Assembly (NCBI GenBank): GCA_932294295.1
Contig: OW028585.1
Span: 13,982,771-14,046,770, forward strand
Length of the DNA stretch: 64,000 bases
From: Alitta virens
Taxonomy: Eukaryota; Annelida; Polychaeta; Phyllodocida; Nereididae
Direction of reading: 5' to 3'
Under the pieces are notes generated by a model. It searched no databases, was not told where the DNA came from, and was given only the letters and a program-made list of their open reading frames with translations. Shown here piece by piece: positions 26,855 to 59,208 of the stretch; positions within the stretch are counted from its first letter, which is position 1, and every line of letters starts with the position of its first letter. The position numbers were made by a program, and so were the translations under genes.

Positions 26855-26873
26855 ATGGGAGGAAATAACAACA
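26855..26873 (+). CDS. gene A exon 1
   Basis: 19 coding bases (MGGNNN plus one base) followed by donor GTAAGTAC. The context CCATGG is favourable for initiation. Gene B has the same exon (MRGNNN) and donor. Confidence 0.75.
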
Positions 26874-29800
26874 GTAAGTACAGCTTATGGCATGTCAATG
26901 TTTGAATTGTTATTTTGGAAAAAAATCACTGGTAATGATATTATATAGAGGACAATGTTTTAAAGGTTACATTTTTTTACATAATATGAAGCCCAGTTAA
27001 TTCACATACAAACAAAGTTGTACATGCACAAAATTATAACTATATTGCAAGCAAACACGGCTCAATCTGAATTGAATAAAATGTTTTTTTTTTAATATTT
27101 CAATGCGTCCATGTCTTTATATCATACATCTTGAAGAATGTTTTAATTACTAGTCAAATAATATAATTGATGGTCATTATCAATGTACCTCTTAATCAAC
27201 TACACACAAAGTATATTATGTGTTTGTTTTTGCATCAACAATATGTATAACTATTTAAAAACAACATAAAAAAGTGTTATCACTGATCCATGTCCGTCTG
27301 GTGGGGTCACTGTAGTCACTGAGGCGTGGCTATATATTATACAGCATGTTATATATATATAACTAAATGGCGACATATGTGACTGACACGCCTGTTCAAT
27401 AAAAAGTGAAGTTAAAAGCTATTGCATTTATACAGCCTTTTAGTTTAGTTACTAAGTAGCATAGTAGTAATAAATCTGCACTGATGTCATGACAACAACC
27501 TATAAATGTTTAAGTGTTGAATATGCACATACATACATTATTTGTTAAGTGTCCAAGTGGTAAAGTAGTATGATACCGGTGCTAATGTCATGATGATAGA
27601 ACCTAAAGTGGCTGAGACTTCTGTTAAGAAAAGTGAAGATGTTAATGCAATTAGTGATGTGTATTAAAAAGGTCCGGTCCAGGGGTGAGAGGTCTGGTAC
27701 TAGAGATCGGACCAGTATGGAGGCCGTCCATCGATGTAACAGTTGTTTCACCAAATATAAAAACTGGTTCTTGTTTAACATAATCTGATATATGGAATTA
27801 TTTACTACACACGGGCAGGACAGACTAATAATTTAATTATTGCATTATTTATTTATCAGGAATGATTAATACTGAAACAAACCAAGATGACAAACATCTG
27901 GTGTATAATAAATTCCACATGCAATGCTTGGATTACCAGTCCAGGGTCATCGGACTGGTGCGGTTCCGGTATTTTTGTAGTGGTCCGGTTTTTTAGCGTT
28001 CTGGGGTTGAACCATGGCCCGGACCGATCTGAGGCGGTCCGGTTCACATCACTAAATGCAATGAATAAACGGCTGTTGTTTAGGGTTGTTATTTTTCACT
28101 CAGTGTCCAATCGCAGAGTAGTTATATTCCTGTACCGATGTCACTCATAGTGGTAATGTTGACAAAATTAATGAGTGTAAATCTGTCAGAAATGAAGTTA
28201 ATACATTGATCAGAAATGCAAAAAAAAATGTATTATGAATATTTGTATAATGAAGGAAAATGTAATGCAAAGAACTTGTAGGCTGAGTTATCAAGGTTGT
28301 CTGGTAAATCCACTAACAAAAATTATAATTAAAGTCCACTAACAGCTAAAGAGCAGAATGATTATTTTGCTAATGTTGGTATTGATACGGTCAAACATTA
28401 CCATTCTGTTATGCTATTCTCCTCAAAGGACCTGAAAGTATTTAAGTATTTATGGAGGACTGAGACAGTTGCACACTTGTTTAGTTATTTCTAACTCAGT
28501 GTCCCTTGGACTTGATTCCAAGCTAATTAAGGATTGAATTGCCATATCTCCAAGAGAGCAGCATGCAACCCCCTCATTAAATACTCCCGGGATCTGATTT
28601 TAGAAAGTTCACTCGTTGCTGCAGTACATATGTATCCAACTGCTCCAGGTTCTCCCGATTTTACCAGCACCAGGTCATTGCAAGTTGGTACACACACTCC
28701 CAGCATGTTCTTAAACGTAGAATTATACGCACTCCCAGCATGTTCTTAAACATAGAATTATACGCACTCCTAGCATGTTCTTAAACGTAGAATTATACGC
28801 ACTCCCAGCATGTTCTTAAACGTAGAATTATACGCACTCCCAGCATGTTCTTAAACGTAGAATTATATATTTTCTCTGAAGTTTTGAGGTCTATTGTATA
28901 CCAAGCTTCGCAGCTGTATAACACACCAGTGTCTCAGACCCATTTCTTCACTCTTTAATGAGCATCACTATTCCTGCATAAGAAGGACGTGAACTTGAAC
29001 ACATGGTTTATAAAATTCAAACTTTATATATATATATATATATATGTGTTGTGTGTGTGTGCTGCAGTGATCTGAATGTAGAGGTTTTTAATGTTCATCA
29101 TATACCTGGCCAAAGGACTGGGGTTTCCATCACTCAAAATACCCCCCTTCTGAATCTGCTACTGCTACAAGAATGTGCTTGTACTTGAACAAATTTACTT
29201 GTACTTTGACTTAAGTACTCAGATAAATAGCTGTACTTGTACTTGATATATTCTTTTGTACTTGACCCCAAGGCTGTACGGTACTTTTACATGAATTGTG
29301 ACTTAGTTTATTGACATGCTGATTCTGTCTGTGCAGTCTTTTAGACTCTGTGGTTTGTCTAAAATGTTTTTCTCTTGAGCAACAATCACAGTATCATCCA
29401 TCAAGAGTAATCCATGGACATTGCCTAGCCAACCATCAACATGGCTTAATGGGGTGCTGCTGCTCTTTGTACACAGATGTGTTCTTACTTGCTCAGCTAT
29501 AGGTGCCGCTAGATTGGGTGTTCCGAGGTAGTTGTAACTGTCAGTATGAGTAATTGTTATGCCTCCTAGCTTCACGTTTCCATCTGTAATACATATCAAT
29601 TGTAGTTTGACTGTCAAAATATCACAGTATCTTTCATCAAGAGTAATCCATGGAGAATGCCTTCAGAATCCATGAACTGATCACTTCCTATTTTCCCTTT
29701 AGCTACATTTCTACCATTACCACCATTATCAAGGTATTGCAGCAGTTTTTTTCACTTGGTCGTAAACCTTATGGTAATCTGTAAATGTCACATACAAAAC

Positions 29801-32800
29801 CCGCCGTTTTTTTCAGGTTGTTATTGGCCAATGAATACAAAGTTGTAAAGGAAAGCAATCTGAAAAATCGAGTAATTTAAGTTATCCAGGAGCAACTCCA
29901 TCAACATCACCTGCTTTATTGACTTTTAGTGATGGCAGAATTCAACATCTGTGGGTCGTGATTGTGAGTCAGGTGGCACAATTGTTTGCGGAAACTTTGA
30001 TGACGTAAGAGGTATCGATTTAGTAAGAATTAGGATGGCAAAATATTGAGGAAAGATAAAGTTGGTGTATCCCCTATAAAGCAGTTGTGACAAGACCATA
30101 TAATTAGCTTATGGCTGCTGCACTGCACTGTGTGAAAACCCTGAGCTACACCCAGCTGCACAGCTGGAGATCTGCCCTTCTCCCTGGATGTTTCATTCCT
30201 TGCTTTGTTCCTTTCCTTTTCATGTGCATCTTCCCATGCTTTATAACATGTTGACCATCTTTCTAAGAGTCTCTGCATTACAAACATCTGTATACCATAT
30301 CTTTGATCTTATATATTTTTACATACATGTATATACGTTCGTTTAAATTACCAATGTGTTAGATCATTTGTTATGGATAACGCCCCACAATTTTTATGTA
30401 TAGATATAACAAGATTAATTTTCACATTGAAAACTGTACATCATTATGTTGCTATTGTATTGTAACAAATCTTTATCATAGCTGGAACCTAGTTTTATTT
30501 ACTACTTTTCTATTATTCTTTAATTTTTATTGTATGTCATTTACATTGTATTTTCTGTTTACATTGTGACACATACGTCATGAATGACATGCAGCTGTCG
30601 AATTAAAGATATATATTTATAATTGATCAACGGAGGCTTGTTTGTACCACTAAACAAGTGTTTATTTCTTCTCGGTAAAAAATTGGTCATGTAGGCCTAG
30701 AATTGCATCACAGTCACGTGACTGGAATTCCCCAATTGAGCAGCAGCAGCAGTAGTAGCCCAGTTTGAATAAAGATATTTACAGGGCCAAAAATATGACA
30801 CATTAGCTGTTAGTATGGCCGTGTGTGTATGTTCGTAGATCACTGGTGACACATATAGTCCGCATGCACTAGTCAGACATCACCCATGTCGCACAGCATC
30901 ATGCCAGCTTTGGGCTGACCTGGCATGCTATAGTCTAGCTCTCTCTATCTAAAGGGGTGCTCACACTCTCACGTATAAGATCTACGAGTGACCACGTACA
31001 TCAAAGATGGGCTCACCCGTGCATCTGTTAATCACGCATAAATTACAACCTGTACACGTGGTGCAATAATAGATTTCCAGCGAACATCCTTCAAACACAC
31101 CTGAACGTCCATCAAACGCTCACCAAACTTCAGTTGCCAAGCATCCATGAGGCGTCCGTGTGCAATCGTAGCTCGCTCGTAAATTGCTCGCCGATCACTT
31201 GTAGAATGTTCATAGATCGCTCATGCAAGTGGTTCAAGAGTAAATAATAATATTAATAATAATCTGGATGGGTTACGGATGGGCTACGGATGGGCTATGA
31301 ATGGCTATGGATGAGCAAGGATGATCAAGGATGGGCAAGGATGAGCAAGGATGGGCAAGGATGGCCAAGGATGGCCAAGAACGTACGTAGAACATACGTA
31401 GAACGCTCGCCAAGTGAATCCAGAGCAAGATACGTAATTGATAAAAACAATTCACTTGTAGAACGTCTGCCATAGCTTTAAACATGTTAAAATTGTTTAC
31501 CCTCTCCATGTATGCTCATGAGTGGTCCAGCACGGATAGCAGCGTCCTATGAATAAGCGCGAGTATACGTAAAACGCTTGGCGTGTGAATCTCATAAGAC
31601 CAAGGATGAGCAAGAGTAACAAAATGTTTTCATATGTGGTCATATGTAGGTCGTATCCATGACAGTGTGAATGCCACTTCAGTCTTTTCCGCAGAGTATT
31701 CTCAGAGCGTTCAGGGCTGCCACAGTGTCATTGGTTATTTGATGCATTCTACTGATTCAGTATCTTTTCTGTTTATTTGAAGGTAAGCTTCAAAAAGATG
31801 AGACACATCGCGTATGGGAAGCTGCTTGCAGGTAAATACTTCAATTAGTTAATTATATACATACAAATATCATATATGTCATCTTTATCCATACGCTGTG
31901 GTATGTGTGTAAATATTTAAATGTTGATATTAAATCATTCATAAAAAGTGGGATGAATTTATACACATATTTTCATGTTTGATGAGAAACTATCGATTAT
32001 TTTGAAAAAAATAAATGAAAGTAAAATACAGGTATTAAAGCCAAAAACACTCACCGATGTATACATAAGAAAAAATTCCAAGAAATCTTATACCAATCTT
32101 ATCTTGGTCTGAATTATTTTGGTGTGACTGTCAGTGAAGTTTTTTTCTTGCCTTGATGAAACTTTGCCCACTTCAAAATCTGATGGTAATTTTCATTATA
32201 ATTTGTTTTCAGTATTGAGTTAATTTTCAAATATAAAACAACAGAAAGTACATTAAAAGCATATCACCCAAGGCATCACATTAATGGACCCTTTTCCCCT
32301 AAATTTTAATTATGGCAATCCTTTTCAAAAGACAATTTTTCTTTGAGGTAAAATTATGTTTGACTATATTTTTTTTTTTAGATAAAGCTTACAGCATTCG
32401 AGTTAATACACATCCTCAAACTTCACTATTTTCTCTAATTTAAATAGTGGCTCTGTATGAGCATTGTAACTTGAATTGCTGATCAGCCGTAGTTGTGAAA
32501 TAATTTCATTCCATATGCGTGCTCTCCGATATTTAGTAATTTTTTTGTCTTGTTCTGTTCTTACTTTGATTCCTCCTTACCTGCCTCCATGATTTTGATA
32601 AGATATTGCTGCTGACATTCTTTTACAATATTGAATTTACTATAGGTACATAGATATTGAGGACATCATTACTAATCTCACAACATCAAATGTCGAAGAA
32701 GAAAGTGAGAAAATACTTGCAATCCTTGCGGACGGAAAGATTGTATTTCCAAAAGGGCAACCGTCAATTTTCATGCGGTTGTTGAAAGATGCTGACACAT

Positions 32801-35800
32801 TTTTGGATTCCCCTAAGTTCATCTCAGTATTAAAGGTAGGATGGTTCTGAGCATGATCAAATTAAGGTTTTAAGAAAAATAGTAAACTGAATTTTATTTT
32901 TCCAATGAATTTTCTCTGAGAAGTCATTATTTATTTCCATGTAGTGCGAATGATGCTGGTACCTAGATATCGAGAATAAATTTTTGGATAAATTTTAATT
33001 TGTAATGTTGATCTCGGTCAATTGTTGTAAAATATTGCAAAACATAATGCTTATCTTTTATGGCATTTCACAGAAATGTTATTATTTCTTTTTTCCCAGG
33101 GATTGCTACCAGAGTACGAGAAAAGTGGACTCCCTGTATTTGAGCGACCATTTTCCATCTTAATCAATGACTTCAAGATACAGAATCACTTGCCAAAAGA
33201 CTATGAAAATCCTGGCAGCAGAACATCTTGGCTGGTAGATAGTCATATGTTGACATGTTATTCATAACAATTAAGCGGTTGAATCCCCCACTATAATCTA
33301 TGAAATTTTTTTAATCTATTTTTGACTATTTTGCTTGAAATTACAAACTTATTATACGAGTTTCTAACCTTACCCAATCTCTTCAAAACATGAAAAAAAA
33401 TCTGCATAAGAAATTAGCCATTATGCGCCTAAGTACTGTTGTGTTCATATGTTGTGTCATGTTCATAAGTTTAATGGATATTGCATTTTGTATTAAAATC
33501 TTGCCTTGGATTTTGAAATAGCATTATCTGAGACCATCTTAGTTTGCCCCAATACAGTTACCTTCGGGAAGGCGAACAACAAACAATCACCAAGTAACTA
33601 CTAATATCTTCACCACAGCAAAACAATTATGTTACATAAAAACCTTTCATTCTTTGGATTATGCATTTACTTACAGACCAGCAAATGGAGAGATCCAATT
33701 CTCCCTTTGGCTATAAGAGTTATACCAGATGTGAGCATGGCACTGCACCTAAGTCTAGAACACTGTTTGTCATACATTGGCAGGGTGACGTCTTTACTAC
33801 AGGTAGGGTTTCGCAGCATTCATGTAAAATTACAATTCTGAAGTTATAAAAAATGCATCGCTTGGTGGTTACTGTCCAGCTCCACTGAATTTCCTGAATT
33901 AGATTTTGCTAAAACCTGATTTTAGAGCAAAAATTGCATCTTGTTCGCTAACTGTAAATATTTCAATAGTTAAACTATATTTTGCTTTTCTTTTTATTTC
34001 AGATTTTAGCACCATTAGGTTCCAGATTGCAGAAGACAAGGTACCAGTTGCTGTTGTATCAGTTGTGCATAGATGAGCTTTGCAAAGTCATAGTGTTTTC
34101 ATAGTCATATCCATAGCAATGCCGACCTAGCCTCCAGTAGCCATTTACATTTGTTTCTTTTATGGGATAGGCTGCATCCTGTTAGAGTTGGATCACCAAT
34201 GTTTAACCTATCTTGGTCATTATTCTTGACCAATCATCAATATTTGCATGTATATTTTACCACCTAGCACCATTACTTTAGACAGCCAGTGACACAAGAA
34301 TAATTTCTTCAAATCCGCCTAAAACTATTTGTCAAGTTATTTTTGATTTGGTTTCTGTCATTGCCAGTTGTAGGGAACTGCTTTTTCTGTTGTGGATCAT
34401 ACATTTTATTGCGACCAAGATGTAATGGTGGCATGATGTGCTTGCTTTCTCCAGATTCCTGAATGATCTTGTGAAAGATTGGATACGCTTTTGGATTGGC
34501 TGGAGTTCACCATTTATCAATATTCTGAAAAGTCTCATACACCATGGGGCTGATCCTCTTCAGCGTTTGGATGATGATACTGAGTCTGCGCTTGTGTCTT
34601 TGATTAAAAAAGGATTCTCAATACTATTTACCAACCCCACTAGCAATGTTGCCTTTCTGAACCTTCTGGGATTGATGATGGAGTCTAGAAGAATGACTTG
34701 CCCAGCTGAAGATGGAAGTACAATATTACACATGGCTATTCAGTCTCTCCCATGTTACGGCTGTCGAAGTCCAAAAGGATTAGTAGGGCATGGTGATTGG
34801 ATGCTACACATTTATGAATCTCTGATTGCCACAGTTCTGGCTATTTATCCAGATTTACTTGACAAACAAAATGACACAAACCATTCTCCACTTCATACAT
34901 TCATACAGCGAACCTTGTCTCGTGATTCTCCCTTGACTAATAGATGTTGTCTGTGCCGTGTCCTTACTTTTGATACCCCTCAAATGCCACGTTTACTTGT
35001 TCCACCGAGATTTAACTCGCACAAGGAATACACTGTGATTCCCTTTGAACTAAGTGGACAAGAGAAGTTAACTCATCAACTTTTGAGTTTCATCAACAAG
35101 ATTGTCCCCACTTTAGCAACTGCTTCGAACTTGGACCTTCAGGATGAAAATGGTGCTACTGTGGTGCATGGGTTGTTGGAAGGCATTGAAATTTTCTCCT
35201 TCATGACTTTGATCTTTCTCAGGTAAATATAATTTTGGAATGTTTCATAATGCAGGGGATTATGCAGTAATGAGAAACATATTTTACCTATTCAATAACT
35301 GACATAGCCTAATGAAGTGAACATGTTATGACTTTTAACTTTTATAGGTTATAAAATAAAACTTAAATCTGTATTCTTATTACTGAGGCTAGCCAAAGTT
35401 AAATATTCTTGAAAATAAGGCTCTTGTGTGAATTTCCTGTAACAATGAAAAGCCTATAAGTGATTATTGGGTTGTTTTTTAACTTCGATAAAAAAATAAG
35501 GATGTTGTGCATAAGTCAATTGAACATATCATGGCCACATTCTCTCTCTCTTTCTCTCAGGTGTGAAGATACCCTGATTGAGGTGCTGAGCAAACTTCTG
35601 ACAAAGAAAAATGTCAATATGGTGGATAAGTACATGGGGACCCCATACAGCTGGATTCTTATGTGGAAAGAAACTGTAAATGATCCAGAGGAAGTTGTGC
35701 CATACTTTCAAGCAAAACCAGACGATGAAGTTGTTAATCAGAAATTCTCAAAACTACAAAGATTGTTCATCACAAACAATGCAAACACCAAACTTGCAAG

Positions 35801-38800
35801 AAAGGGATTGAAGGTGCTTAGGTAAGTCTACATTAATTTGGAATATCTGCCCTGAATGTCATGTCTGAGTTGATATTGATCACAATGAGTTGATTATGAC
35901 CAATTGAGTCACTTAGTCAAATGCTTAACATCACACTAACTGCGAATGATTTCAACAAGTTATCGAGCTAAATATGATAATAGAGGCTAATTTCTTGTGC
36001 ATGATTTTCACAAGTTATGTGAGAGACAGAAAATTTCCCAAACAGGTAGAAGTACAGAAGGGAGTAAGTTACACTATATATTAGTGTAATTAAATTAAAA
36101 AAGATATTCAGAGTGCGATGAAAAAAATTTATTTTTTATTCTTGAACGGTTCATAATGGTTGCTGGTTAGTTATTGCAAACTATGTCATTATCACAACTT
36201 CACAGGTAGAAACAACATAGATTCACACTAATAGAGAGTACCACATTAATTTCAGGGGAAAACAGTTATCAAGCGCTTTTGTGCACACTTTTACAGTGTT
36301 TAAAGAGGACATGCAAAAGCTGTTGAGGACAACAGAGGCTTTAATAAAAAAGGGAAAACCAGAGTGTTTCAACTGCCCATTTTTCAAGGAGCACGTCAAT
36401 TTATACTTTGAAGAACTTCTATTTTTCTATGATGCGGAATCTGTCAGACTTGCCATGCAAATTTTATATGCTTACATTGATGAATCAAACGCCCAGCACT
36501 TTTTGGATATATTTTCAAAAAAGGCAGAACCAGAAATGAAGAAGGATGATGTTCTGACAATAAATTACTTTGCCTACTTTGACACACTTTGCTTGTGTCT
36601 GGCGAAGGGTGCAGTTCCATCAAAGGATGTCATCAATAATGTGATGGCGCTTGCAGTAAAAGAATGCGAATCATCAGTTGCCATTCCAGCTGTATATGAA
36701 ACTGCAGAGAGGCTCATACAAGCTTACAGAAGGCATGGAAACACTGAAGTGATTGAGTGCCACTTGAATCCTTTGCAGAATCTGTACCTCATCAACAAAG
36801 GTCTGCGCCAAACTGCATACAAATTGATTCAATCTGCATATGACACATTGGAAAACTGTATGAAATCAGGCAGTGTCATCAATATCCTTCTCTTCTTAAG
36901 TAATGCTAACCACCCTAAGCGCCACATCATTAGATGCTTTCAACTAATTCAAGTGCTGATGGAAGATGAAAAAAAGAACCCCCATGCAGAAATTGCAGCT
37001 CAAAAGGTTGGCATAGTTCGTGTTTGCAAACCATTCAAAGATTTACTGGTCTCTTCAAATGAAAACTGGCTTCAAAGGAGTGCGTTGCACCTGGCTGTAA
37101 TATTTTGCAATAAGGAAGATGTTTTACAGAACATACCATCAGATATACTAGACAGCCAAGTCAATAAACCAGATTTACATGGCTGCACTCCTTTGCATTT
37201 GGCTTACCTGCATCAAAACGAAGCAGCGGTCACATTCTTGAAATCACATGGCGCAACAGAAGAGCTGGATTTCTTTGGAGTGAAGCCAGAATCTTTCAGT
37301 TTGCGAGGCAGTGCATCAACAGAAGCTGGTGAAAGATATCAGAAACATTGTGTGGGCATTCTAGATGCCAAAACAGGAGTCTACAATGCACTGAAACCTT
37401 TGTTAATTATGCCAACCAAAGAAAGGCAGGAAGTACCTAGAATCTTCAAAAGACTTTTTGAGGCACTTGTGGAAAGCTACCAGGGGGATGTACGAGTTAT
37501 TATTGCAGGGAGTCTACGGGAACGATTGAAAATTGGTCAACTGGATGAGGTAGATGTGCAGTTACGTTTCAAAAATGGTCCTCACCTTGAAGGTAAAGCT
37601 GCAAGTGCTGACATGCACAGGTTTCTAGTGAAAAGATTAGGCGAAATCAGTTGGGAAGGAATTCCCATTAGGCCAATTTCTGTTCAGCGCCCATGGAAAT
37701 TCATCTGTGAAAGCCCCGGGCCTTGCAATCAACTTATTATCTCTGTTGATGTTTTCCCATTCAGGACAAATACTGTCTTGCCAGGAAGTAAGAACTGCTA
37801 CCAAAGAAAACAGGAACGAATTCTGGAAAAAGCACAAGAACACCATGAATACAGCTTTTTGAAATGGAATGACTTTATGAATCAACGATACCTGTTCTTT
37901 AACACACCATTTCAGTATGAATGGGATGTCATGGATAGTCTCCCACCTGGCTGTAGACTTGGTATTCTGATAGCTAAATCATTACTGGAGGTTAGTTGAG
38001 ATTATTTGCTTAACTTGTAGTGGCCAAGAAGGTGAATTATTGGAACATTACATTTGACTACACTTTTTGTTCAAGATTTGCCATATAATTGTCAAACTAA
38101 GATTGCCAAAGATTAATGATTATGTAAAATTAAGATAAGAATGAACATTTTTTTCAAACATCAATTTGTCATTTGTACTGAATATTCTTCCTTAGGCTGT
38201 TCAACAAAAGAGACAAAACAGTGCATACATTTTTGTGAAGAAACCTATCACCTCGTACGATGTGAAGAACACATTGTTTTGGCTATTGTCCGGTCTGGAG
38301 GTAAGAATAATGAGTATCACCAAGTGACTTTTGACCCTATTTGGCATGAAGATTATTTTATTAGGCCTAAACCCCTGTTACAGGTTAGGGGGGTACCATA
38401 ATCCAATAAAAACATAGACAAGTGCTTATTACACAGGACATTGGTACTTACAAGGTGCGGCATAAAAACTTGCACCACCAGCAATTAACTGCTACCTCTT
38501 TTCTTATTACCTCGATTGACCGTGATCGCATGCAGCTGCAATCATACACAAGAAAGTAATAATAGTCCTAAATATCTTTATGAATATATTTTCTTGTTTC
38601 CTTAAGAATGATAGATAATATGGATCTAAATATAACGCATGCACACTTATCACACCTTCGGGTCATTTTCACCTCAGCCTTTGCAATACAAGCATTAGAT
38701 TATGTCACTGATCATACAGATGTTACAGACACCTGTCTTAACCTTTGCCCCCACAAATAGGGCAAATAGATTCATGTTTAATAAGACGGTAGGGCATTGA

Positions 38801-40087
38801 TACTTTCGAGGCGAAGAGTGCCATTTTGGGTTCCGGTAAACAGTGGTAAATTTTCTGTCTTTTCTGTCTAATTAACTGGCCCATCCTCCTGAACATCATG
38901 TGATTATTTCCAGATTACATAGAGATTCAAATAGTCCCTCTAGAATACCATTATATTTCTTTGTTTCAATTTCATGAGCTTGCTGGATCAAAACTGGAAC
39001 CAACCTCCTTATCATCGAAATACCATAATATACATACACACGAATAAAAAAAAATGAAGGAGGATTCTGTGCAAATATTGTATTTTCTGTGGCTTCAGAG
39101 GTGTAGTTACTAGGAAATATCTTATTTGTAAACTTTTCTGCAACTAGAGAACCATGCAAGCAGACAGAAATCTGACTTCTGTGGTATGTGTCACTCTGAA
39201 CAAGCCCTGCAGCATGCACCCTGTTAATAATTCAGACACTGATATTGTCTAACATTTTAAGATCAAAAATATCACAATGACCAATTGCTTATACCCATGA
39301 CTGAATGTGACAAAACGTTAAACGACCTCATAAGCATTTGAGTAACCTAGAGCTATCCGAAAAGAGGAGATGCCTAGTGCAAGGTTTTAGGCCGCACCCT
39401 GTAAATGTAGTTGTAGATGGATATACATATAAAATCTCTCTGACAGTACTAGCTGGACTGAAGAGAGAAGTCCAAAGCAATGATGAATTAGTGGTAAGAC
39501 ACTCGCCTCCTCTGAAGGATCCATGATTAATCCTAGGCCACGACACCCTCTATGAGCAACATCCCAGTTGGATGTTGTTCGGATTAGACATTTAATTTGC
39601 AGTTTTGGGAAGGCTTTAAATGCAGTTATCATGTAATACATTTTCACACTGTATCACACCCATTCATCAACTTATACTTTCACCTCTGGCCAGCCTGACT
39701 AGCCAACCAGAGGCTTGTTCATTTTCATTTGTTGGGTATTATCAATTTCATAATGCAACTTTTTTTCAGATTGGGGATGTGAGCTTCGAACGTGAAAATG
39801 CAAAGGAAATAGAGCGTTCGCTGGTTTCGGGCAAGTTGAAATACAACATAGACTATCTGAAATGGCTGGATGAAGAAGATTTGGAAAAGTATAAGGTCCA
39901 AGGACGATACTGGGCAGACCGTATCATTACGACAATTTTCAGTGTAGCAGTAAATCACCAAAAGATTCTTGCAAGTTATTTCAATTCTGAAAGGCCATTA
40001 AATCTGCTTTCCAGTTGCCAAATAACTGAGATTATGCAGATTTATGAAATTTTGAGAGAAATACTGAGACAAGAGGTTTTCTACTAA
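26855..40087 (+). CDS. gene A: ankyrin-repeat cGAS-like (Mab-21 family) nucleotidyltransferase
   Basis: Reconstructed coding exons: 26,855-26,873; 31,783-31,831; 32,646-32,835; 33,100-33,234; 33,677-33,802; 34,003-34,040; 34,455-35,222; 35,561-35,821; 36,256-37,990; 38,196-38,300; 39,770-40,087. All introns are GT-AG and all phases agree, giving about 1,247 residues. Residues 1-200 match no fold I recognise. Ankyrin-type repeats are seen at about 210-430 and again at 820-870 (DLHGCTPLHLA). The nucleotidyltransferase core has Gly947-Ser948, Glu960-x-Asp962 and Asp1027, the layout of cGAS (GS, ExD, distal D). A Mab-21-like C-terminal helical part follows (SYDVKNTLFWLL). By family knowledge it could make a cyclic dinucleotide upon ligand binding; the ligand is unknown and no cGAS zinc thumb was seen. 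Exon limits come from sequence and from conservation in gene B, without transcripts. Confidence 0.85.
27652..28054. mobile_element. hAT-type MITE in intron 1 of gene A
   Basis: 403 bp with inverted ends TAGTGATGTG / CACATCACTA and a perfect 8-bp target-site duplication AATGCAAT (27,644-27,651 and 28,055-28,062). Eight-base duplications are the hallmark of hAT transposases. GGTCCGG words recur near both ends. Gene B intron 1 has a matching unoccupied site (AATACAAT at about 48,874-48,881). Confidence 0.85.
28165..28590 (+). mobile_element. LINE ORF2 fragment in intron 1 of gene A
   Basis: Translation with frameshifts and stops shows the linker between endonuclease and reverse transcriptase of a CR1/L2-like element: RNAKK..YYEYLYNEGKCNAKNL, then ELSRLSGKS, then NDYFANVG, then SVPLDLIPSKLIKD-like. 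It is decayed. Confidence 0.72.
28695..28869. repeat. 35-bp minisatellite, five copies
   Basis: Units start CACTCCCAGCATGTTCTTAA and continue ACGTAGAATTATACG, with starts at 28,695, 28,730, 28,765, 28,800 and 28,835. Copies are nearly identical. Confidence 0.93.
29300..29660 (-). mobile_element. LINE reverse transcriptase fragment, rearranged
   Basis: The minus-strand frame contains HTDSYNYLGT (a segment normally after the catalytic palm) upstream of GLLLMDDTVIVAQ (the palm with a LxxDD-type motif), i.e. out of normal order. The word CATCAAGAGTAATCCATGGA occurs twice (about 29,397 and 29,635), so an internal duplication explains the disorder. Not a functional gene. Confidence 0.75.
29661..30950. 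other. intron 1 of gene A, unique part
   Basis: No exon recognised. 30,830-30,950 is similar to 49,110-49,240 in intron 1 of gene B (TTTGGGCTGACCTG, then TAGTCTAGC/TGGTCTAGC), which shows the duplication extended through the intron. Confidence 0.5.
30951..31679. mobile_element. 729-bp TIR element in intron 1 of gene A
   Basis: Ends AAAGGGGTGCTCACACTCTC and, inverted, AGTGTGAATGCCACTT form imperfect terminal repeats. Gene B is colinear on both sides (left flank to 49,240, right flank from 49,241) and lacks it, which fixes the ends. The inside has a (GGGCAAGGATGA)-type tandem tract at about 31,265-31,385. Confidence 0.8.
31783..31831 (+). CDS. gene A exon 2 (49-bp microexon)
   Basis: Encodes SKLQKDETHRVWEAACR across its junctions. 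It is bounded by TTGAAG at the 3' splice site and by GTAAAT. The exon itself starts GTAAGC, so the acceptor is immediately followed by a donor-like sequence. It is identical in size and layout in gene B (49,316-49,364). Confidence 0.8.
32646..32835 (+). CDS. gene A exon 3
   Basis: 190 bp, phase 2 to phase 0; encodes YIDIEDIITNLTTS onward to FISVLK. Acceptor TACTATAG, donor GTAGGA. The paralogous exon is 52,119-52,308. Confidence 0.85.
33100..33234 (+). CDS. gene A exon 4
   Basis: 135 bp, phase 0 at both ends; encodes GLLPEYEKSGLPVFERPFS onward to SRTSWL. Donor GTAGAT. Read-through past the donor gives ten more codons (VDSHMLTCYS) and a stop, in the same place in gene B. Confidence 0.85.
33521..33592 (+). 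pseudogene. decayed exon 5 of gene A
   Basis: Homologous to intact exon 5 of gene B (53,329-53,397). In A the acceptor CAG has become GAA (about 33,514-33,520), and 7 extra bases (AAACAAT) break the frame before the donor-like GTAACT. The B exon is 69 bp and phase 0-0, so skipping it in A keeps the frame. Confidence 0.7.
33677..33802 (+). CDS. gene A exon 6
   Basis: 126 bp, phase 0-0; encodes TSKWRDPILPLAIRVIPDVS onward to VTSLLQ. Acceptor CTTACAG, donor GTAGGG. Paralogue 53,483-53,608. Confidence 0.85.
34003..34040 (+). CDS. gene A exon 7 (38-bp microexon)
   Basis: Encodes ILAPLGSRLQKT plus two bases. Acceptor TTTTATTTCAG, donor GTACCA. Identical in gene B (53,815-53,852). Confidence 0.78.
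34455..35222 (+). CDS. gene A exon 8 (ankyrin-type repeats)
   Basis: 768 bp encoding residues 186-441. Ankyrin-like units are SPFINILKSLIHHGADPL, EDGSTILHMAIQ (about residue 272), NDTNHSPLHTFIQ (about 325) and DENGATVVHGLLEG (about 417). These show the G-x-T-x-L-H-x-A type core with variation, so exact repeat number is uncertain. Most of this exon is deleted in gene B. Confidence 0.88.
35561..35821 (+). CDS. gene A exon 9
   Basis: 261 bp, phase 2-2; encodes CEDTLIEVLSKLLTKKNVNM, then a MVDKYMGTPYSWILMW ankyrin-like unit, to LARKGLKVLR. Acceptor TTTCTCTCAG, donor GTAAGT. Nearly identical to gene B at the DNA level. Confidence 0.9.
36256..37990 (+). CDS. gene A exon 10 (ankyrin unit plus nucleotidyltransferase core)
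   Basis: 1,735 bp, residues 529-1107. The first half is helical, with an ankyrin unit DLHGCTPLHLAYLHQNEAA near residue 835. The catalytic core follows: IIAGSLRERLKIGQLDEVDV (residues 944-963) compares with the cGAS GS-x9+-ExD motif, and QLIISVDVFPF carries the third acidic residue, Asp1027. Donor GTTAGT after SLLE; the frame reads three more codons to a stop if unspliced. Confidence 0.92.
38196..38300 (+). CDS. gene A exon 11 (Mab-21 C-terminal helices)
   Basis: 105 bp, phase 0-0; encodes AVQQKRQNSAYIFVKKPITS then YDVKNTLFWLLSGLE. The S-Y-x-x-K-x-x-L-x-W pattern is typical of the C-terminal lobe of Mab-21/cGAS-family proteins. Acceptor TTCCTTAG, donor GTAAGA. Confidence 0.88.
38449..39403 (-). 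mobile_element. 955-bp non-autonomous TIR transposon in intron 11 of gene A
   Basis: Terminal inverted repeats of about 25 bp: left TACAAGGTGCGGCATAAAAA, right TTTTAGGCCGCACCCTGTA read inverted. A TA dinucleotide at each end could be the target duplication. A related copy lies at 3.8-4.5 kb in the other orientation. The minus-strand frame at 38,896-39,219 is not conserved in that copy, so it is not a transposase. Confidence 0.8.
39475..39620 (+). mobile_element. SINE family 2 fragment in intron 11 of gene A
   Basis: GAATTAGTGGTAAGACACTC is tRNA-like; the body has CTATGAGCAACATCCCAGTT and GGATTAGACATTTAATTTGC. Confidence 0.72.
39770..40087 (+). CDS. gene A exon 12 (terminal coding exon)
   Basis: 318 bp including stop TAA. 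Acceptor ACTTTTTTTCAG. Encodes IGDVSFERENAKEIERSLVS onward, with EEDLEKYKVQGRYWADRIIT and SEIMQIYEILRE-type helices, ending EVFY. It aligns along its length with gene B exon 12. Confidence 0.88.
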   Translation: MGDVSFERENAKEIERSLVSGKLKYNIDYLKWLDEEDLEKYKVQGRYWADRIITTIFSVAVNHQKILASYFNSERPLNLLSSCQITEIMQIYEILREILRQEVFY

Positions 40088-47726: not shown

Positions 47727-49364
47727 CCATGAGAGGAAATAACAACAGTAAGTACAGCTTATAATATTAATTGTCAATGTTTGAATTGTTACTTTGGACA
47801 AATACTATATAAATAGTTGATGGTGAAGAAACCTACATATATGTCATTTTGCTGGCCGAAGCCAATGATCACTTGCTGAGGCCAATAAAACTGGATATTG
47901 GTCGACTCTCCATCCACCATTTGCTATATTCTACACCTAAATTTATAATTTAATTTAATTTTAATGTATAATTCTTTATTATTTTTATTTTTTATTGTTT
48001 TTGTGCCAATTTTAATTTCACATGACTAATATTTCCTACCAATATTTAATTTTTAGATGACCAATATTATCAGTGATCAATGTCCATCTTTTGGTCACCT
48101 GTTGTTGTTTGTAGTAATTCTTTTTAAATTATAGCAGAGTTTAGTGTTTGCTATAGTCACTGTGATTATACAGCATGTATTATATATATGCAATTTATAT
48201 CTTAGCCACAGCTAAATGGCAACATGTGTGACTGAAAAGCCTCTTAATAAACACAGTGAACTCTCTTCTTTACTCTCTTCTTATAAGGGAGGATGTTTGC
48301 CTTGAGTAAATATTATTATGATGTCTCAATATGAGCTTTGTCTCTCACTCGGCATTAATTGCATTGAGCTATGTCATCAACTGATGCAAAAATATTTTCC
48401 AAATTATTACCTACACCAGAATACTTCAGCATGTCATCATCCTCATATTTTTATTAAATGTTCTGTGAATACAAGGATTCAATACATCAAGTCATGCACA
48501 AATGATAAATAAAATAAACTTGACATATTATGGTAATGTATTTCTATACATATGCTGATATTTATCGTCTGTAATGTTCATTCAGCTAAATATATTTTTC
48601 CCATTATTTTGGGTGATTATTTTTTTTAACTCAGTGCCTTAGTTGCACAGTATTAACATACCTGCACTGCTGTTATGATGATAAAAAATCCTATCATTGC
48701 TAAAACGCCTGTTGAAAACATTGAAGTTGTAGATTGTTTTTTTTTTTTCGGCTTAGTTGTTTCTGTGCTAGATATCACACGTACACACAATGTGTTAGTA
48801 GTGAAGTAGTAGGATTCTGGTGCTGGTGTCATGATGAAACCATCTAACTTGACTGAGACCTTTTTTTGATGCTAATACAATTATAAATGGCAGTTCTTTT
48901 GGGTTTTTTAAATTTTTTTAAGATTAATTTCCAAGTTGAAGTGTAGTTATATGATTGCACTGATGTCATGATAAAACAAAGAGCATATCATTAAAAAAAC
49001 GTGGCCCCTATTGGAATTGTTAAATCATTCATAGTAGGACTGAGCGTAATAACCCTCATTATTTTGTTAAAAAAATGTTTAAAGTACTATTCACATGCGG
49101 TTTGGGTGTCAGGACCCCTTCTCTATTGGCCATGATAGCAAAACATATAGTCGTCATGCATTGGTCATCAGACATCACCGGAACAGCATCAGACTCACTT
49201 TGGGCTGACCTGTCATACTGTGGTCTAGCAATCTCTATCTCAGTCTTCTTCTCAGAGCCTCTCAGAGTGCCCATAGCAGCAATAATGATTCAGTTTGTTT
49301 TTTGTTTATTTGAAGGTAAGCTTCAAAAAGATGAGAAGCAACGCGTATGGGAAGCTGCTTGCAG

Positions 49365-50249
49365 GTAAATACTTCAAGTAGTTAATTCTATACAAATATA
49401 CTAGTACCATAATTAATATAATTAAATTAAATTAAATTAAATTCAAGGAATCTATATTATACTATTGACCTAATGAATGTTTGTGTCATGATCCATCGTC
49501 AAGCATTAACCGTCACTCCCCAAACCAGCAGTTCCTGCACCATAAGCATTTGTATATATCTGTGCTTTTACATCCATGTATATAACTGTGACTATGCCTT
49601 GTTGTATATACTCCTAATTCAAATTTTGTACTTATATTAACATTGTGATAGTGATCATCATTAACTGCCGTAATATATGTATTTAGGGTTACTGTATACA
49701 TGTGATATATATATATATTTAACCAATGTATGTAAACAAAACTTATTACCATGCTATTGTTCAGCAACTGGAACCATAGACGTGTAGATTTTCTATTGAT
49801 AATATACCTTTAACATTTATACCATGAATATATATATTGAATATAAGATTATTTTAATCTGTTATTTTTGACAAATGCATCATGTATGATATTACTAAGC
49901 ATACATAATTATACCAACAAGTGTACACACCCACCCAACAATGGCTAATTGGTCAGCTTAAATACAGTTATGACGCAGCACACTGACTGAGTAATAAATG
50001 ATAAGGAATTTACAAACTAGAAGTTAAACAATTTGAATTTTACTGTTCTAGAAGTAGTAAAACTAACAAAGTGGGTATAGAAACTGATATACCCTTGAAG
50101 ACTAGTTACTATAGGTGCATGATACCTGAGATTCATGGCCTCGTTGATATAGATAGTCTTGTATACATCGGATGACATCAGAATGTTCATTTTATCTTCC
50201 TCATCTAAGTACCTAAGAAGCGGATAGTTGCCACTTCTAAATAATCATT
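49365..50249. other. intron 2 of gene B, 5' part
   Basis: AT-rich, includes an AATTA-type simple tract near 49,420-49,443. No exon. Confidence 0.45.
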
Positions 50250-51380
50250 TAGCAGTGTATTACCAAAGTGCGAAAATGGATGCTGACAAACAAACTTAAA
50301 TTCAATCACAACAAGACAGAATTTATCATCATTGGCAGTAAACAACAACTAAGCGAATTGCAAATTGATGAAATCGAAGTCGGTGATTATCGGATTATGC
50401 CAGCCAAAACTTACCGCAGTCTAGAAGTCACATGTGATAAAAATCTCGAAATGAAAGATCATGTCAACAAAATCTGTCGAACATCTTACCTAGCGCTTTC
50501 GACCTTACCTTACAGACAATGCCCCAGAATCCCTTGTCCATGCATTTGTTACATCCCAGTTGGATTATTGTAATTGTCTTCTGTATGGCCCCCCCACCTG
50601 TGTCATCATGAAACTTCAGCATATGCAAAATACAGCTGCCCAATGCTTCTTGGACTGAGGAAATTTGATCGCATAACTCCAGCTCTTAAAGCATTTCACT
50701 GGCTTCCAGTCATCTCCCAGATCACATTTAAACTGTGCCTTCTTGCCTTTAAAGCATTGCATGGACAAGCTCCAAAATATTTATCAGACATCCTAACAAA
50801 GAGGTGCCGTGGCCTAGTGGTCAAGGTGCTCGCCAGCTAAGTGCAAGGTTATGGGGCTTGAGCCCCCACCATGGCATGGAGGAACTGAGCATATCCTCTG
50901 TAACTCTTTGCTCCACTCCACCCAGGTATAAATGGGTACTTGGCGACTGGCAGAGATGGCAATTGTGTGTGCTTGATCCATGAAGCGCCGTAATTGGCTG
51001 CATGCTGGGTGTATGCTCTCCAGTGAGTTGAGAAAGGCTCAAGCTTGAACAGGCCTGCCAAGGGTGTAATTGTCATAGTTGGTTGAGCTCATCCATGAAG
51101 ATAACAGACTCTAAACCCAATCATTTACATTTATCATTTATTTACTTTATTTACAATCCTAATAATCACACAAGATCAAATGTACAAAAATGTAACTCCT
51201 CAAATCAAACACATCACCTTTGGCAGATGCTTATTCCATGTAAGTGGCCCTGTCTTAGAATAGCCTACCGTATACAATAAGATCTTTAAAGGATAGCCAA
51301 CAATTCAAAAACTCTCTAAAGACTCACCTATTTCATTTATATTTTCAATAGACACTTCATAGAATGTAACCAGATATGAT
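50250..51380 (+). mobile_element. CR1/L2-like LINE 3' end in intron 2 of gene B, split by a SINE
   Basis: The first part (50,250-50,800) reads in two frames as KWMLTNKLKFNHNKTEFIII, then a DKNLEMKDHVNKICR thumb segment, then LVHAFVTSQLDYCNCLLYG, then RITPALKAFHWLPV and FKALHGQAPKYLSDIL. These are highly typical of non-LTR ORF2 C-termini. It resumes after the SINE at about 51,095 (TRSNVQKCNSSNQTHH and later KNSLKTHLF-like). Frameshifts and stops make it dead. Confidence 0.88.
50801..51094 (+). mobile_element. tRNA-derived SINE, family 3
   Basis: A-box-like GTGGCCTAGTGGTCAAGGTG and B-box-like GGGGCTTGAGCCCCC, then a body (AACTCTTTGCTCCACTCCAC to GGTGTAATTGTCATAG). It differs from families 1 and 2 and interrupts the LINE reading frame. 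Confidence 0.75.
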
Positions 51381-52118
51381 GCTATACCAAAATGTTTTTG
51401 TCATTGATAGTTACTTGAAAGAAGAGCGTAGATCTAATTGTAACATAGAATGGACAATACACATATTTAATCTTTAGTCATACACAGCGGTATATGTGAA
51501 ACTATTTGGAAATCTAAAATTTTTTTATTAGATCATTTTTAACAAGTGGGATGAATTTGTACATATATTTTTTATGTTTTATGAGAAATTTTTCATATTT
51601 TAAAACTAAATGAAATTATATCCAAATATTAAAGCCATAAACACACACCTACATATACGTAAGAATGATTCAACTAAATTGTGAGAGAGCCTGAATAATT
51701 TTGGTATGACTGTCAGTGGCACAAGTGTAGAATTAATTTGACGCCCTAAAAAAAAGAACAAGTAAATCCTCAACCGAGAGTCATGCACCAGAAGCATATT
51801 TTAGTAATTTGAACTTTTTGTAAGTTGTTTTTAAAATTCTTACCAGTTTCATCTTCTTTCAGTGCATTCCAAGTGGCATCTTGTTCCATACGTTGGCATA
51901 TGCACATCCTCAAGTTTAAGTATTTTTTGTAATTTGAATAGTGGCTCTGTATGAACATTGTAATTTGAATAGCTGATCAGCCGCAGTTGTGAAATAATTC
52001 CATTCCATATGCTCCCCAATATTATGTCTTGTTCTATGCTTACATTGATTACTTCTTATCCATGATTTTGATAAAATATTGTTTCCATCATTATTTCACA
52101 ATATTGAATTTACTCTAG

Positions 52119-52308
52119 GTACGTTAATATTGAGGACATCATTCATAATCTCACACCATCAAATGTCGAAAAATTAAGTGAGAAAATACTTGCAATCTTT
52201 GCGGATGGAGAGATTGTATTTCCAAAGGAGCCACCATCAATTTTCATGCGGTTGTTGAACGATGCTGAAACATTTCTGGATTCCTCTAATTACATCTTAG
52301 TATTAAAG
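52119..52308 (+). CDS. gene B exon 3
   Basis: Open, same phase as in gene A; encodes YVNIEDIIHNLTPSNVEKLS onward to YILVLK. Part of the truncated 5' half. Confidence 0.7.
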
Positions 52309-52433
52309 GTAGGAGTTGAGCATTATAAGATTAAAATTTCAAAACAAAATGATCTGAACATTTTTTTTTCAATGACATTTTCTCTGAGAATCTTATTCAT
52401 TTAGGTCATTATTTTGATATTTCTTTTTCCTAG

Positions 52434-52568
52434 GGATTGCTACCAGAGTACGAGAAAAGTGGACTCGCTATACTAGAGCAACCATTTTCCATCTTAATCA
52501 ATGACTTCAAGATACGGAATCACTTGCCAGAAGACTATGAATGTCCTGGCAACAGAAAATGTTTGATG
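52434..52568 (+). CDS. gene B exon 4
   Basis: Open, 135 bp; encodes GLLPEYEKSGLAILEQPFS onward to RKCLM, donor GTAGAT. Confidence 0.7.
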
Positions 52569-53328
52569 GTAGATAGTCGTATATTGACATGTTATTCATA
52601 ACAATTAAGAGGTTAAATCCTTTACTAAAAAACATGAAATTTTGTGAATCTATTTTGACATTGCTTGAAATGACAAACTTATAGGAGCTTCTGACCTTAG
52701 CCAATCTCTTCTTGACATGAAATACATATATACAATTTTTATTGACGGAAGATGTCAGAAAAGACATATATGTGTACAAGTACAAAAGATGAAAGAAATA
52801 AAAGCAATCAGAAAATAATCAAAAATAGGGAATACAACAAAGACTATAGTTACAGATGGTCCCAGCCACCAAATTAGAGTATTTACATAGAAGTTAACAT
52901 TAGTTTAGCTGTTAATCCACTCCTTATAAAATCCAATCAGAATCTTTCATACATACAGCTTGTATCATAAACACAGTTATATTTTACATATATAATACAT
53001 ATTAACATGTTCAACAAAATACATTCCTTATATAATGTGTACAATATAACTATTTACAGAATGATTTTATTTCAAAATAGAGCTAAATATATATTAATTA
53101 ATAGGAAGTATATATGTATATATTTACAGAGATTATCTGACTTCACTTCTAGAAAACAAAATCAAAAAGAGTTAATACACCTGCATAAGATATTAGCAGC
53201 CTAAGTACTGTTATGTCATACATTGTATCATGTTCAAACGTATAATAAGTCAGCTTAAAAATGACAGAACATTTAAGTAAAGTAATCGATGTCTTATTTT
53301 CTATGAAAATGTTGCCTTGGCTTTTCAG

Positions 53329-53397
53329 ATAGCATTATCTGACACCATCTTTGTTTGCCCCGATACCGTAACCTTCGGGAAGGCAAACAACCACCAA
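53329..53397 (+). CDS. gene B exon 5 (intact form of the exon lost in gene A)
   Basis: 69 bp, phase 0-0, between CTTTTCAG and GTAATT; encodes IALSDTIFVCPDTVTFGKAN plus NHQ. The good splice sites and open frame suggest it was a real exon of the ancestor. Confidence 0.65.
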
Positions 53398-53482
53398 GTA
53401 ATTACACATATATCTTCACCAAAGCACAACAATTATGTTACATTAACACCTTTTATTCTTTGGATAATGCATTTACTTACAG

Positions 53483-53852
53483 ACCCACAAATGGAGAGAT
53501 CCAATTCTCCCTTTGGCTATAAGAGTCATACCAGATGTGAGCATGGCACTGAGTGTGAGTTTAGATCACTGTTTGCTGTACCTTGGCAGGGTGGCATCTC
53601 TACTACAGGTAGGGTTTCACAACATTCTTGTAAAATTACAGTTCTGAAGTTGAAAATAATGCATCGCTTGGTGGTTACTGTCCAGCTCTACTGAATTTCA
53701 TTATCATGAATTAAATTTAGCTCAATTTGATTTAAGAGCAAAAATTGCATCTTGTTCACAAACTCCAAAAGATTTCAATAGTTAAACTATAATTTGCTTT
53801 TCTTTTTATTTCAGATTTTAGCACCATTAGGTTCCAGATTGCAGAAGACAAG
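53483..53852 (+). CDS. gene B exons 6 and 7
   Basis: Exon 6 is 53,483-53,608 (THKWRDPILPLAIRVIPDVS to VASLLQ) and exon 7 is 53,815-53,852 (ILAPLGSRLQKT), with the same sites and phases as gene A. Confidence 0.7.
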
Positions 53853-54218
53853 GTACCAGTTGCTGTTGTATCAGTTGTGCATAGATGTGCCTTGCAAAGT
53901 CATAGACTCAGTGTTTTCATAGTCATATTAATAACAATGCCCACCTAGCCTCCAGTAGCCATTTACGTTTGTTTCTTTTACGGGATAGGCTGCATACTGT
54001 TTGAGTTGGATCACCAATGTTTAACCTATCTGAGTGATTATTCTTGAATTATCATCAATATTTGCATATTTTACCGTCTGGCACCATTAGTTTAGACAGC
54101 AAGTGACAAAAGAGTAATTTCTTCAAATCCGCTTAAAAGTATTTGTCAATATATTTTTGATTTGGTGTAAGTGATGTTGCTGAATGTAACAATGATATGA
54201 TATGGTCGTTTTCTGCAG

Positions 54219-54402
54219 ATTCCTGAATGATCTGGTTAAAGATTGGATTATCTTTTGGATCGGCTGGAGTTCACCATTTATAAATATTCTTAAAAGTCTC
54301 ATGCAACATGGGGCTAATCCACTTCAGCGTATGGATGATGGTACGGAGCCTGCTCTGTCATCTTTAATTAAAAAGGGATTCTCAATACTATTTTATACCT
54401 AA
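54219..54402 (+). pseudogene. gene B exon 8, truncated
   Basis: Aligns with the first ~180 bp of gene A exon 8 up to GFSILF, then reads YT and TAA. The rest of the exon (all the clearer ankyrin units) and its donor are missing. The sequence after the stop aligns with the late part of gene A intron 8, so one deletion removed exon plus intron sequence. Confidence 0.8.
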
Positions 54403-54595
54403 TTAAGTAAAATGTTATTAATTATAATTTAAAAATTATAAAATAAATTTAAATATGTCTCCTGGCCAAGATTAAAAATTCCTAAAAATAATACTCTTTT
54501 ATGAATTAAAATAAAGATGTAGGTGTGCATAGTTTATTTAAACCTAACATGGCCACATTTGTCAAGCTTTTTTCTGTCTTACTCTTCCTCTCAAG

Positions 54596-54855
54596 TGTGA
54601 AGATACCTTGATTGAGGTCCTGAGCAAACTTCTGACAAAGAAAAATGTCAATATGGTGGATAAGTATATGGTTACCCCATACAGCTGGATTCTTATGTGG
54701 AAAGAAACTGTAAACGATCCAGAGGAAGTTGTGCCATACTTTCAAGCAAAACCAGACGATGAAGTTGTTAATCAGAAATTCTCAAAACTACAAAGATTGT
54801 TCATCACAAACAATGCAAACACCAAACTTGCAAGAAAGGGATTGAAAGTGCTTAG
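54596..54855 (+). pseudogene. gene B exon 9 with shifted acceptor
   Basis: Almost identical to gene A exon 9, but the acceptor CTCTCAG|GTGTG is CTCTCAAGTGTG here. The only nearby AG is one base further in, which puts the exon out of phase with exon 8. Confidence 0.75.
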
Positions 54856-55574
54856 GTAAGTCGTCGGTATCTATCTTCATCTTATCATAATTTTTTTTAA
54901 AGATACCAGTCATCGGAACATAACAGATGATTATAGTAGTTTATCAGAGCAGAATGATTTGTAAGCCCTACTTATCTTTTACTGTCTTAATTAAAAAAAA
55001 AAAAAAAAACACAGACTGTTTGTATCTGAAGCTGATTTACAGAATCTTTTATTTTTTTGTGGGGGAATGGTGGGATTTACATGTATAGTTCTGTCTCGTG
55101 GCAAGTTGATGGTTACATGTGCATGGTTTTTTTTCACAACTTCAAGTATACAGTAGGATCCAAAATCATATATATGGTTAACCAGCATACCAACAGTTAA
55201 TTTCAATTTTTACATATGTTCACTTCAACAAAAAAATCACATTCTTTACATTCCATTAGCAATTCTAAATGATTCAGCAACTCTTATTCACTGGACTTGG
55301 ATGATTTTAATCACAATTTCATTTAATATGATATCTTGGTGAAGTGAATGACTAAAAGTAAATTTTTGGGCCTCTCAGTGTAAACATTGTACAATAATTA
55401 AGTGATGTTATTGCACTGATTTCAGAGGAAGACAATTATCTAGTGCTTTTGTGCACACCTATAAATGGTTTGAAGATTACCTGCAAAAACTGTTAAGGAA
55501 GACAGAAGATCTAGTGAAAAAACTGTCCGTTCTTCAAGAGTCACGTTGAATGGTATTTTGAGGAACATCTGCAT

Positions 55575-58500: not shown

Positions 58501-59208
58501 TCGAGAAAGCAAACACAGCTCTCAGAGCAGACTATTTAAGTACATGGCACCACCTCACTATAAGGACAAGTAAAACACCATACTATTGTGACCACCTCAC
58601 TATTAAGTCCCTTCCTATTAAGATGACCTCACTAAATAATATAGCAGAAGACGCGTTAACTGTGCAACTGATAATGACAATATATACATGGCCAAATGTG
58701 CCATATGCATTTTCCATGAGAAGGATAAACGCATGGAAAACACATGGTTTTTAGCTCATTACAATTAGGAAAACCATGTGTTTTCCATGTATTTATCCAA
58801 ACGCATGGAAAACGCACGTAGCACAATTGGCCATGTAGTATCACTACTGTTGAGTCCATGCAATACACATGAACTAACTTCTTTCAGGTTGAGAACATAA
58901 GCTTCAAACGTGAAAATGCAAGTGAAATGGAGCATTTACTTGTTGAGAGAAAGCTGCTGTACAATCCGAATACACCTAACTGGATGGATGAAGACGATTT
59001 GGAACAATATAAGGAGCAAGGAAGATACTGGGCAAATCGGATTCTTTCTTTAATTTTTGAAATTGCTGTGGAACGAAAACAGATTCTGGCCAGCTATTTT
59101 AATTCCCAAAAGCCAATATTAGACCTTTCCAATAGTCCAATTGAAGAAATCATTCAAATGGTTGAAATTGTGCTTAAATGTCTCGGACCTGAAGTTTTTA
59201 CAGTATAA
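55575..59208 (+). CDS. gene B 3' reading frame: cGAS-like nucleotidyltransferase half
   Basis: Open from ATG 55,575 through exon 10 (to 57,140), exon 11 (58,076-58,180) and exon 12 (58,888-59,208), about 663 residues with consistent phases. It keeps one ankyrin unit (DLHGCTPLHLAFLHHNEAA), the GS motif (IAGSLRERLKVGQLNEVDV; Gly361, Ser362, Glu374, Asp376 of this frame) and QLVISVDVFPF with the third Asp. Whether it is expressed from an internal start, or is a recently dead exon that has not yet decayed, cannot be told from sequence. Upstream 55,426-55,549 is the frameshifted start of the exon. Confidence 0.6.
57141..58075. other. intron 10 of gene B
   Basis: 935 bp between donor GTTGGT and acceptor TTTTTTAG. 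Much longer than intron 10 of gene A (205 bp). No repeat family recognised inside. Confidence 0.5.
58685..58839. mobile_element. hairpin MITE (ACTACATGGCC ends), copy 2
   Basis: TACATGGCCAAATGTGCCAT at the left and GGCCATGTAGTA at the right, with internal ACGCATGGAAAACAC hairpin. It sits in the last intron of gene B; absent from gene A. Confidence 0.8.
58888..59208 (+). CDS. gene B exon 12 (terminal coding exon, satellite founder)
   Basis: 321 bp with stop TAA. Encodes VENISFKRENASEMEHLLVE onward, EDDLEQYKEQGRYWANRIL and SNSPIEEIIQMVEIVLK, ending EVFTV. The last ~90 bp are the first copy of the downstream satellite monomer. Confidence 0.75.
   Translation, partial: VENISFKRENASEMEHLLVERKLLYNPNTPNWMDEDDLEQYKEQGRYWANRILSLIFEIAVERKQILASYFNSQKPILDLSNSPIEEIIQMVEIVLKCLGPEVFTV

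Follow-up and report, generated by a model that had tools for sequence, protein, structure and literature searches.

Tandem genes for a long ankyrin-bearing probable nucleotidyltransferase

The window analyzed here is a stretch of 64,000 nucleotides from the annelid Alitta virens (positions 13982771-14046770 of contig OW028585.1, C13 in our numbering), and the genome searched alongside it comprises 671,116,069 bases in 23 contigs. The window holds a gene for a protein of 1247 amino acids (gene 1), its damaged tandem copy (gene 2), and a satellite array that begins within the latter (Table 1). In the gene 1 product, a long N-terminal region ending in ankyrin units is followed by a nucleotidyltransferase core and a C-terminal segment resembling that of Mab-21 proteins. 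Judging from these features, the protein probably belongs, as a divergent member, to the lineage of cGAS/Mab-21 nucleotidyltransferases and works as a ligand-gated synthase of a nucleotide messenger.

When GT-AG junctions were searched around the exon boundaries of the initial annotation, which had been made from the window sequence without database searches, gene 1 was recovered as an 11-exon chain (26855-40087, + strand) with no lesion in any exon. The chain, the protein length, and the candidate catalytic residues of that annotation were thus reproduced. The claim of one consistent reading stood in part: this small search left three splice readings, differing at exons 5 and 6 only, and the exon reading is therefore not strictly unique, but the exon blocks are supported by gene 2, which has the same exon order (tblastn and blastn). 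Gene 2 itself is alignable in exon 7 over ~58 codons only, its exon 9 carries the frame-breaking deletion near position 55521, and its match in the genome search holds one TGA and one TAG. In the catalytic core, the two genes are identical in 156 of 228 columns, with a Nei-Gojobori ratio of nonsynonymous to synonymous substitution rates (dN/dS) of 0.33 for residues 880-1107, 0.19 for the motif segment (945-1000), and 0.33 for the ankyrin segment (786-880). Exons 10 and 11 are supported as coding by their dN/dS values against the tandem copy (Table 1).

Only residues 798-862, comprising one good and one weak unit, score above the Pfam ankyrin cut-offs (Ank_2, 27.6 vs. 27.3; Ank, 25.3 vs. 21.1; Ank_3, 23.0 vs. 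22.3). The ankyrin-type units of the initial annotation were thus retained for this stretch and not farther upstream, where a hand-made profile gave the candidates at residues 209-220 and 272-282 scores of 0.1 and 0.7 bits and exon 7 stayed under the Pfam cut-off. Because the ankyrin units and the core motif both lie in exon 9, their linkage requires no splicing and cannot be undone by it. The N terminus of gene 1 reads MGGNNNS, which resembles an N-myristoylation site; since the counterpart in gene 2 (47729-47747) reads MRGNNN, membrane anchoring of the product is offered only as an idea.

Table 1. Features of the window, with dN/dS values referring to the comparison of gene 1 with gene 2
Feature	Coordinates	Strand	Remarks
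Gene 1, exon 1 (MGGNNN)	26855..26873	+	GT donor; tandem-copy counterpart 47729-47747
Gene 1, exon 2	31783..31831	+	GT-AG; kept in tandem copy
Gene 1, exon 3	32646..32835	+	GT-AG; dN/dS 0.98
Gene 1, exon 4	33100..33234	+	GT-AG; kept in tandem copy
Gene 1, exon 5	33677..33802	+	other junctions possible; tandem copy aligns in this frame
Gene 1, exon 6	34003..34040	+	junction search and tandem copy; other acceptor possible
Gene 1, exon 7, weakly ankyrin-like	34455..35222	+	Pfam ankyrin E 0.06 only, under cut-off
Gene 1, exon 8	35561..35821	+	84/85 aligned residues same in tandem copy; dN/dS 0.04
Gene 1, exon 9: N-terminal stretch, ankyrin 798-862, nucleotidyltransferase core (G947/S948, E960, D962, D1027)	36256..37990	+	single open frame
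Gene 1, exon 10: Mab-21-type SYDVKNTLFW segment	38196..38300	+	dN/dS 0.17; counterpart in 22/50 family flanks, gene 2 included
Gene 1, exon 11: C-terminal end and stop	39770..40087	+	dN/dS 0.28
Gene 2, damaged tandem copy	47729..59208	+	exon 7 truncated; ~20-nt deletion breaking the frame of exon 9; catalytic residues kept
185-bp satellite	59117..64000	+	unit starts inside last exon of gene 2

Conserved active-site residues

The core of gene 1 contains G947/S948, E960, D962, and D1027, together with SYDVKNTLFWLL, and S1127 lies inside SYDVKN. The published motif for cGAS-like receptors (cGLRs) consists of GS, 8-20 residues, [DE]h[DE]h, 50-90 residues, and h[DE]h, with h[QT]GS in its strict form (PMC9980059), and gene 1 fits the loose version as GS-X11-EVDV-X62-VDV. 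The loose pattern also arose in 63 of 2000 shuffles of the gene 1 protein and the strict one in 3 of 2000; what lifts the motif above chance is that it is common to gene 1, the tandem copy, and the homologous protein P0001 and is kept in most long open reading frames (ORFs) of the genomic family described below. Over the 51 family ORFs of at least 440 amino acids, counted with one artefactual row of the alignment excluded, the five positions are conserved in 51 (G), 51 (S), 50 (E), 49 (D962), and 50 (D1027, with one gap) cases, and the complete set of GS, E, D, and D is kept in 47, the exceptions being L016, L017, L031, and L041. The residue before GS varies (G in 23, A in 18, T in 5, C in 4, and V in 1).

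Alignment with human cGAS places G212/S213, E225, D227, and D319 on G947/S948, E960, D962, and D1027, where the D319/D1027 pairing sits between aligned segments and was placed by motif order and spacing, and K414, S435/Y436, and K439 on K1103, S1127/Y1128, and K1131. One review links Ser435 of cGAS to substrate binding (PMC8085147). All nine mapped columns are invariant in 17 selected rows covering the core and exon 10, and lysine occupies the K1131 position in 21 of the 22 members with exon 10 (asparagine in L003); the conservation of SY in exon 10 is partly by construction because the search was seeded with SY-bearing copies and required an SY-like pattern. Basic charge was also considered as a sign of nucleic-acid sensing and rejected: the isoelectric point of the catalytic part (8.89) does not discriminate, since that of Mab21L1 is about the same (8.94).

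Relationship to cGAS and Mab-21 proteins

When a 50-row profile of the exon-9 core was compared with all PDB sequences, the top 5 matches, and 15 of the 17 at E ≤ 10, were cGAS or Mab-21-domain proteins (best E = 0.019). With a profile that also covered exon 10 (17 hand-picked rows of the 23 on hand), 39 of 40 matches at E ≤ 10 were cGAS, cGLR, or Mab-21 chains; the best was an engineered cGAS (E = 5.5e-5), followed by 4jlx (4.9e-4), 7lt2 (5.9e-4), and cGAS 4ley (7.8e-4). The 4jlx chain is labelled "Uncharacterized protein" and scores 588.8 bits against human cGAS. In the best PDB chain, the core was aligned along with a weak second stretch at SYHVKTAIF. Two collinear segments match cGAS-family sequences, indicating homology over both the core and the C-terminal helical bundle, with the latter represented in gene 1 by a CR...K.LLE...SY.VK segment. 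Column shuffles reached the score of the core in 0 and 1 of 500 trials under two gap settings and that of the C-terminal segment in 0 and 0 of 500. The relationship to cGAS and Mab-21 proposed in the initial annotation is thereby supported, as is its Mab-21-like C-terminal segment, which is encoded by the constrained exon 10.

Single-sequence searches of Pfam, PADLOC, and PDB identified no nucleotidyltransferase family for gene 1, nor did they for P0001 alone, and a protein homologue search with gene 1 returned nothing at E ≤ 0.01. Alignments of two and three rows used as queries recovered P0001 (260 amino acids) as the sole homologue at E ≤ 1, and pattern scans of viral and prokaryote contigs identified no relative.

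An expanded family in the genome

The exon-9 protein yielded 92 matches at E ≤ 1e-3 in its own genome, corresponding to at least 75 places when matches within 5 kb were joined; this is a lower bound, with 75 of 205 first-look candidates scored. Of these places, 55 underlie the family ORF counts, and a matching ORF of at least 440 amino acids is present at 51 of them. The aligned cores are 30-40% identical to that of gene 1, with 68% for gene 2. A hand-made profile detects one ankyrin unit in 36 of the 51 ORFs. The places are concentrated toward contig ends: 42 of the 75 are no farther than 4 Mb from one, in regions that make up at most 27% of the genome (binomial p = 2e-7, a value that ignores the clustering of related copies); such places are seen, for example, on contigs C4, C12, C1, and C9. 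A FastTree tree of the family, computed without support values, contains, among the members listed, long-branched ones, including the pair in the window, and one young close group.

In 44 of the 50 members other than gene 1, the stretch aligned to exon 9 is followed by a GT dinucleotide. Among the 27 members whose GS is preceded by G or C, 25 have no recognizable exon 10 in the flanks examined (L008, L010-L014, L017, L019, L024, L026, L028, L031, L033, L035, L038-L043, L045, L049, L051, L052, and L054), and most of them belong to the young group. In these copies, the C-terminal lobe may be missing or located farther away.

That the gene 1 locus is a decaying copy rather than an expressed receptor is a very unlikely alternative. 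The damage to its tandem neighbor, the dN/dS of ~1 in exon 3, and the stops present in 8 of the 92 genome matches would fit such decay, but the 11 exons of gene 1 are free of lesions and long matching ORFs persist at 51 of the 55 loci.

Mosaic identity of the tandem genes and the adjacent satellite

Identity between the two genes is mosaic along 33461-40100 and 53271-59215 of the window. Exon 8 and the middle part of exon 9 are 93-99% identical and introns 5-6 are 88-93% identical, compared with 72-81% for the core, 42-60% for the intron preceding exon 9, and ~37-49% for the last two introns; exon 10 is mispaired in the alignment used. Silent differences number ~5 over 88 sites in residues 650-786 versus 64 over 146 in residues 880-1107 (Fisher p = 5e-11). 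This pattern suggests old paralogs whose front part has recently been homogenized in patches, possibly by gene conversion.

The satellite (26.7 copies according to TRF) repeats the 3' coding end of gene 2 and the sequence following it up to the window edge. Rfam yielded no match in the window at the gathering threshold, and Pfam gave 2 weak matches, both under the cut-off (E = 0.012 and 0.063), for 10 other ORFs of the window.

Weighing the evidence

A number of results weigh against assigning gene 1 to the cGAS/Mab-21 lineage as an enzyme. Pfam Mab-21 (PF03281) gave no match with gene 1 (E ≤ 10), with either of the two genes once the C terminus was included, or with the 50 family cores (E ≤ 1). 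Comparison with a cGAS-family profile in hhalign gave probabilities of only 2-17% (E = 0.022 to 0.0014), and a cGAS-family hidden Markov model scored 3.2 bits on the gene 1 domain, a value that 2 and 0 of 500 shuffles attained; the P0001 row of that comparison is an artefact and was set aside. The two-row profile retrieved no cGAS from PDB, nor did the three-row profile, which found a bacterial CD-NTase at E = 0.73, ranked below an unrelated match at 0.5. One N-terminal piece of gene 1 scores 27.5, compared with 31.5 for the single-sequence core. Instead of h[QT]GS, gene 1 reads IAGS, and the vertebrate zinc-ribbon Cys/His set is absent, residues 1028-1130 containing only C1043, H1058, H1059, and C1095. 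Exon 10 was not found for 28 of 50 members in the flanks examined, nor in ~5.5 kb downstream of two of them, L010 and L012. Finally, AlphaFold2 models were poor (mean predicted local distance difference test scores of 47 and 37), the exon-9 model being too poor for use, and the matches of a low-confidence model do not tell cGAS apart from other nucleotidyltransferases.

The fold matches listed for that model are nucleotidyltransferase-fold proteins, plus SpoT, and the top ones include DNA polymerase lambda, TUT7, TdT, and mtPAP, with Z scores within 1 of cGAS. They would be compatible with another polymerase-beta-type nucleotidyltransferase, for instance a terminal-transferase-like one, bearing only a superficial similarity to cGAS. 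We regard this as very unlikely, given that the matches of the PDB profile searches at E ≤ 10 include cGAS, cGLR, and Mab-21 chains but neither DNA polymerases nor terminal transferases, and that the C-terminal segment matches the cGAS family as well.

A somewhat more serious contender, albeit still an unlikely one, is a Mab-21-like protein that has kept the fold and serves as a noncatalytic scaffold or nucleotide-binding switch, as in the case of MiD51, which is not known to have synthase activity. Against such a role stand the retention of GS, E, D, and D in 47 of 51 ORFs despite the low identity of most cores to gene 1 and the low dN/dS values in the motif region.

What the computation shows is the order of the domains, the kinship with cGAS, the retention of active-site residues, the constraint on the catalytic region relative to the tandem copy, and the expansion of the family. 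The likeliest role of the gene 1 product is that of an innate-immune synthase that is gated by a stimulus and makes a nucleotide second messenger. The enzyme would be inactive until a ligand linked to pathogens or damage is bound by its N-terminal part or catalytic domain; once active, it would join nucleoside triphosphates into a cyclic or linear di- or oligonucleotide, and this product would signal via STING or a different receptor. The presence of many copies would broaden the range of stimuli perceived.

More tentatively, ankyrin-coupled cGAS-like synthases that standard Mab-21 models fail to see could form a large branch, numbering at least 75 loci in this genome. The changed residue before GS could then reflect a different choice of substrate or product, and the rapid duplication near contig ends would resemble a host-pathogen arms race. 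Should the family be active, a single animal would possess dozens of candidate second-messenger enzymes undercounted by Pfam-based surveys, and the ankyrin-bearing front end could be used to test which stimuli activate cGAS-like enzymes whose ligands are unknown, a question that PMC9980059 describes as open.

Comparison with known systems

Like the animal cGLRs described in PMC9980059, the gene 1 family combines GS-[DE]h[DE]h-h[DE]h at the published spacing with a Mab-21-type C-terminal segment, ankyrin fusion, and lineage-specific expansion; it differs from them in that gene 1 has no Pfam Mab-21 match, carries Ala (G, A, T, C, or V across the family) in place of Q/T, and has ~900 residues before the core. 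Human and mouse cGAS share with gene 1 the catalytic triad and the positions of K414, S435, Y436, and K439, whereas gene 1 lacks the zinc-ribbon set, is similar in short segments only, and has an ankyrin-bearing N terminus. A Crassostrea protein combining HEPN, immunoglobulin, and DED-TRADD-N domains with a Mab-21-like cGAS domain is likewise large, multidomain, and part of an expanded family; its partner domains are different, and the passage on it in PMC8195603 states no link of ankyrin to the cGAS domain. MiD51 and Mab21L1 belong to the same fold class and, according to PMC10732462, the same superfamily; Mab21L1 lacks GS at the core motif in the sequence compared.

In PMC10732462, the cGLR superfamily is defined by clade and PF03281. 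Gene 1 is a relative of the cGAS/Mab-21 enzymes that would work like a cGLR and is not a formal cGLR by the published tests ([QT]GS and PF03281). Among the papers listed by the literature searches, no study was devoted to the ankyrin-cGLR fusion; the 140-enzyme screen of PMC9980059 may include one. The initial annotation had not recognized this architecture; ankyrin-fused cGLRs, including members from Stylophora pistillata, are already published, and because both ankyrin fusion and lineage expansion are reported in PMC9980059, both are known. The fusion of ankyrin units to a cGAS-like domain is therefore not a new type; what is unusual here is the large divergent branch, mostly with G or A where [QT]GS is canonical.
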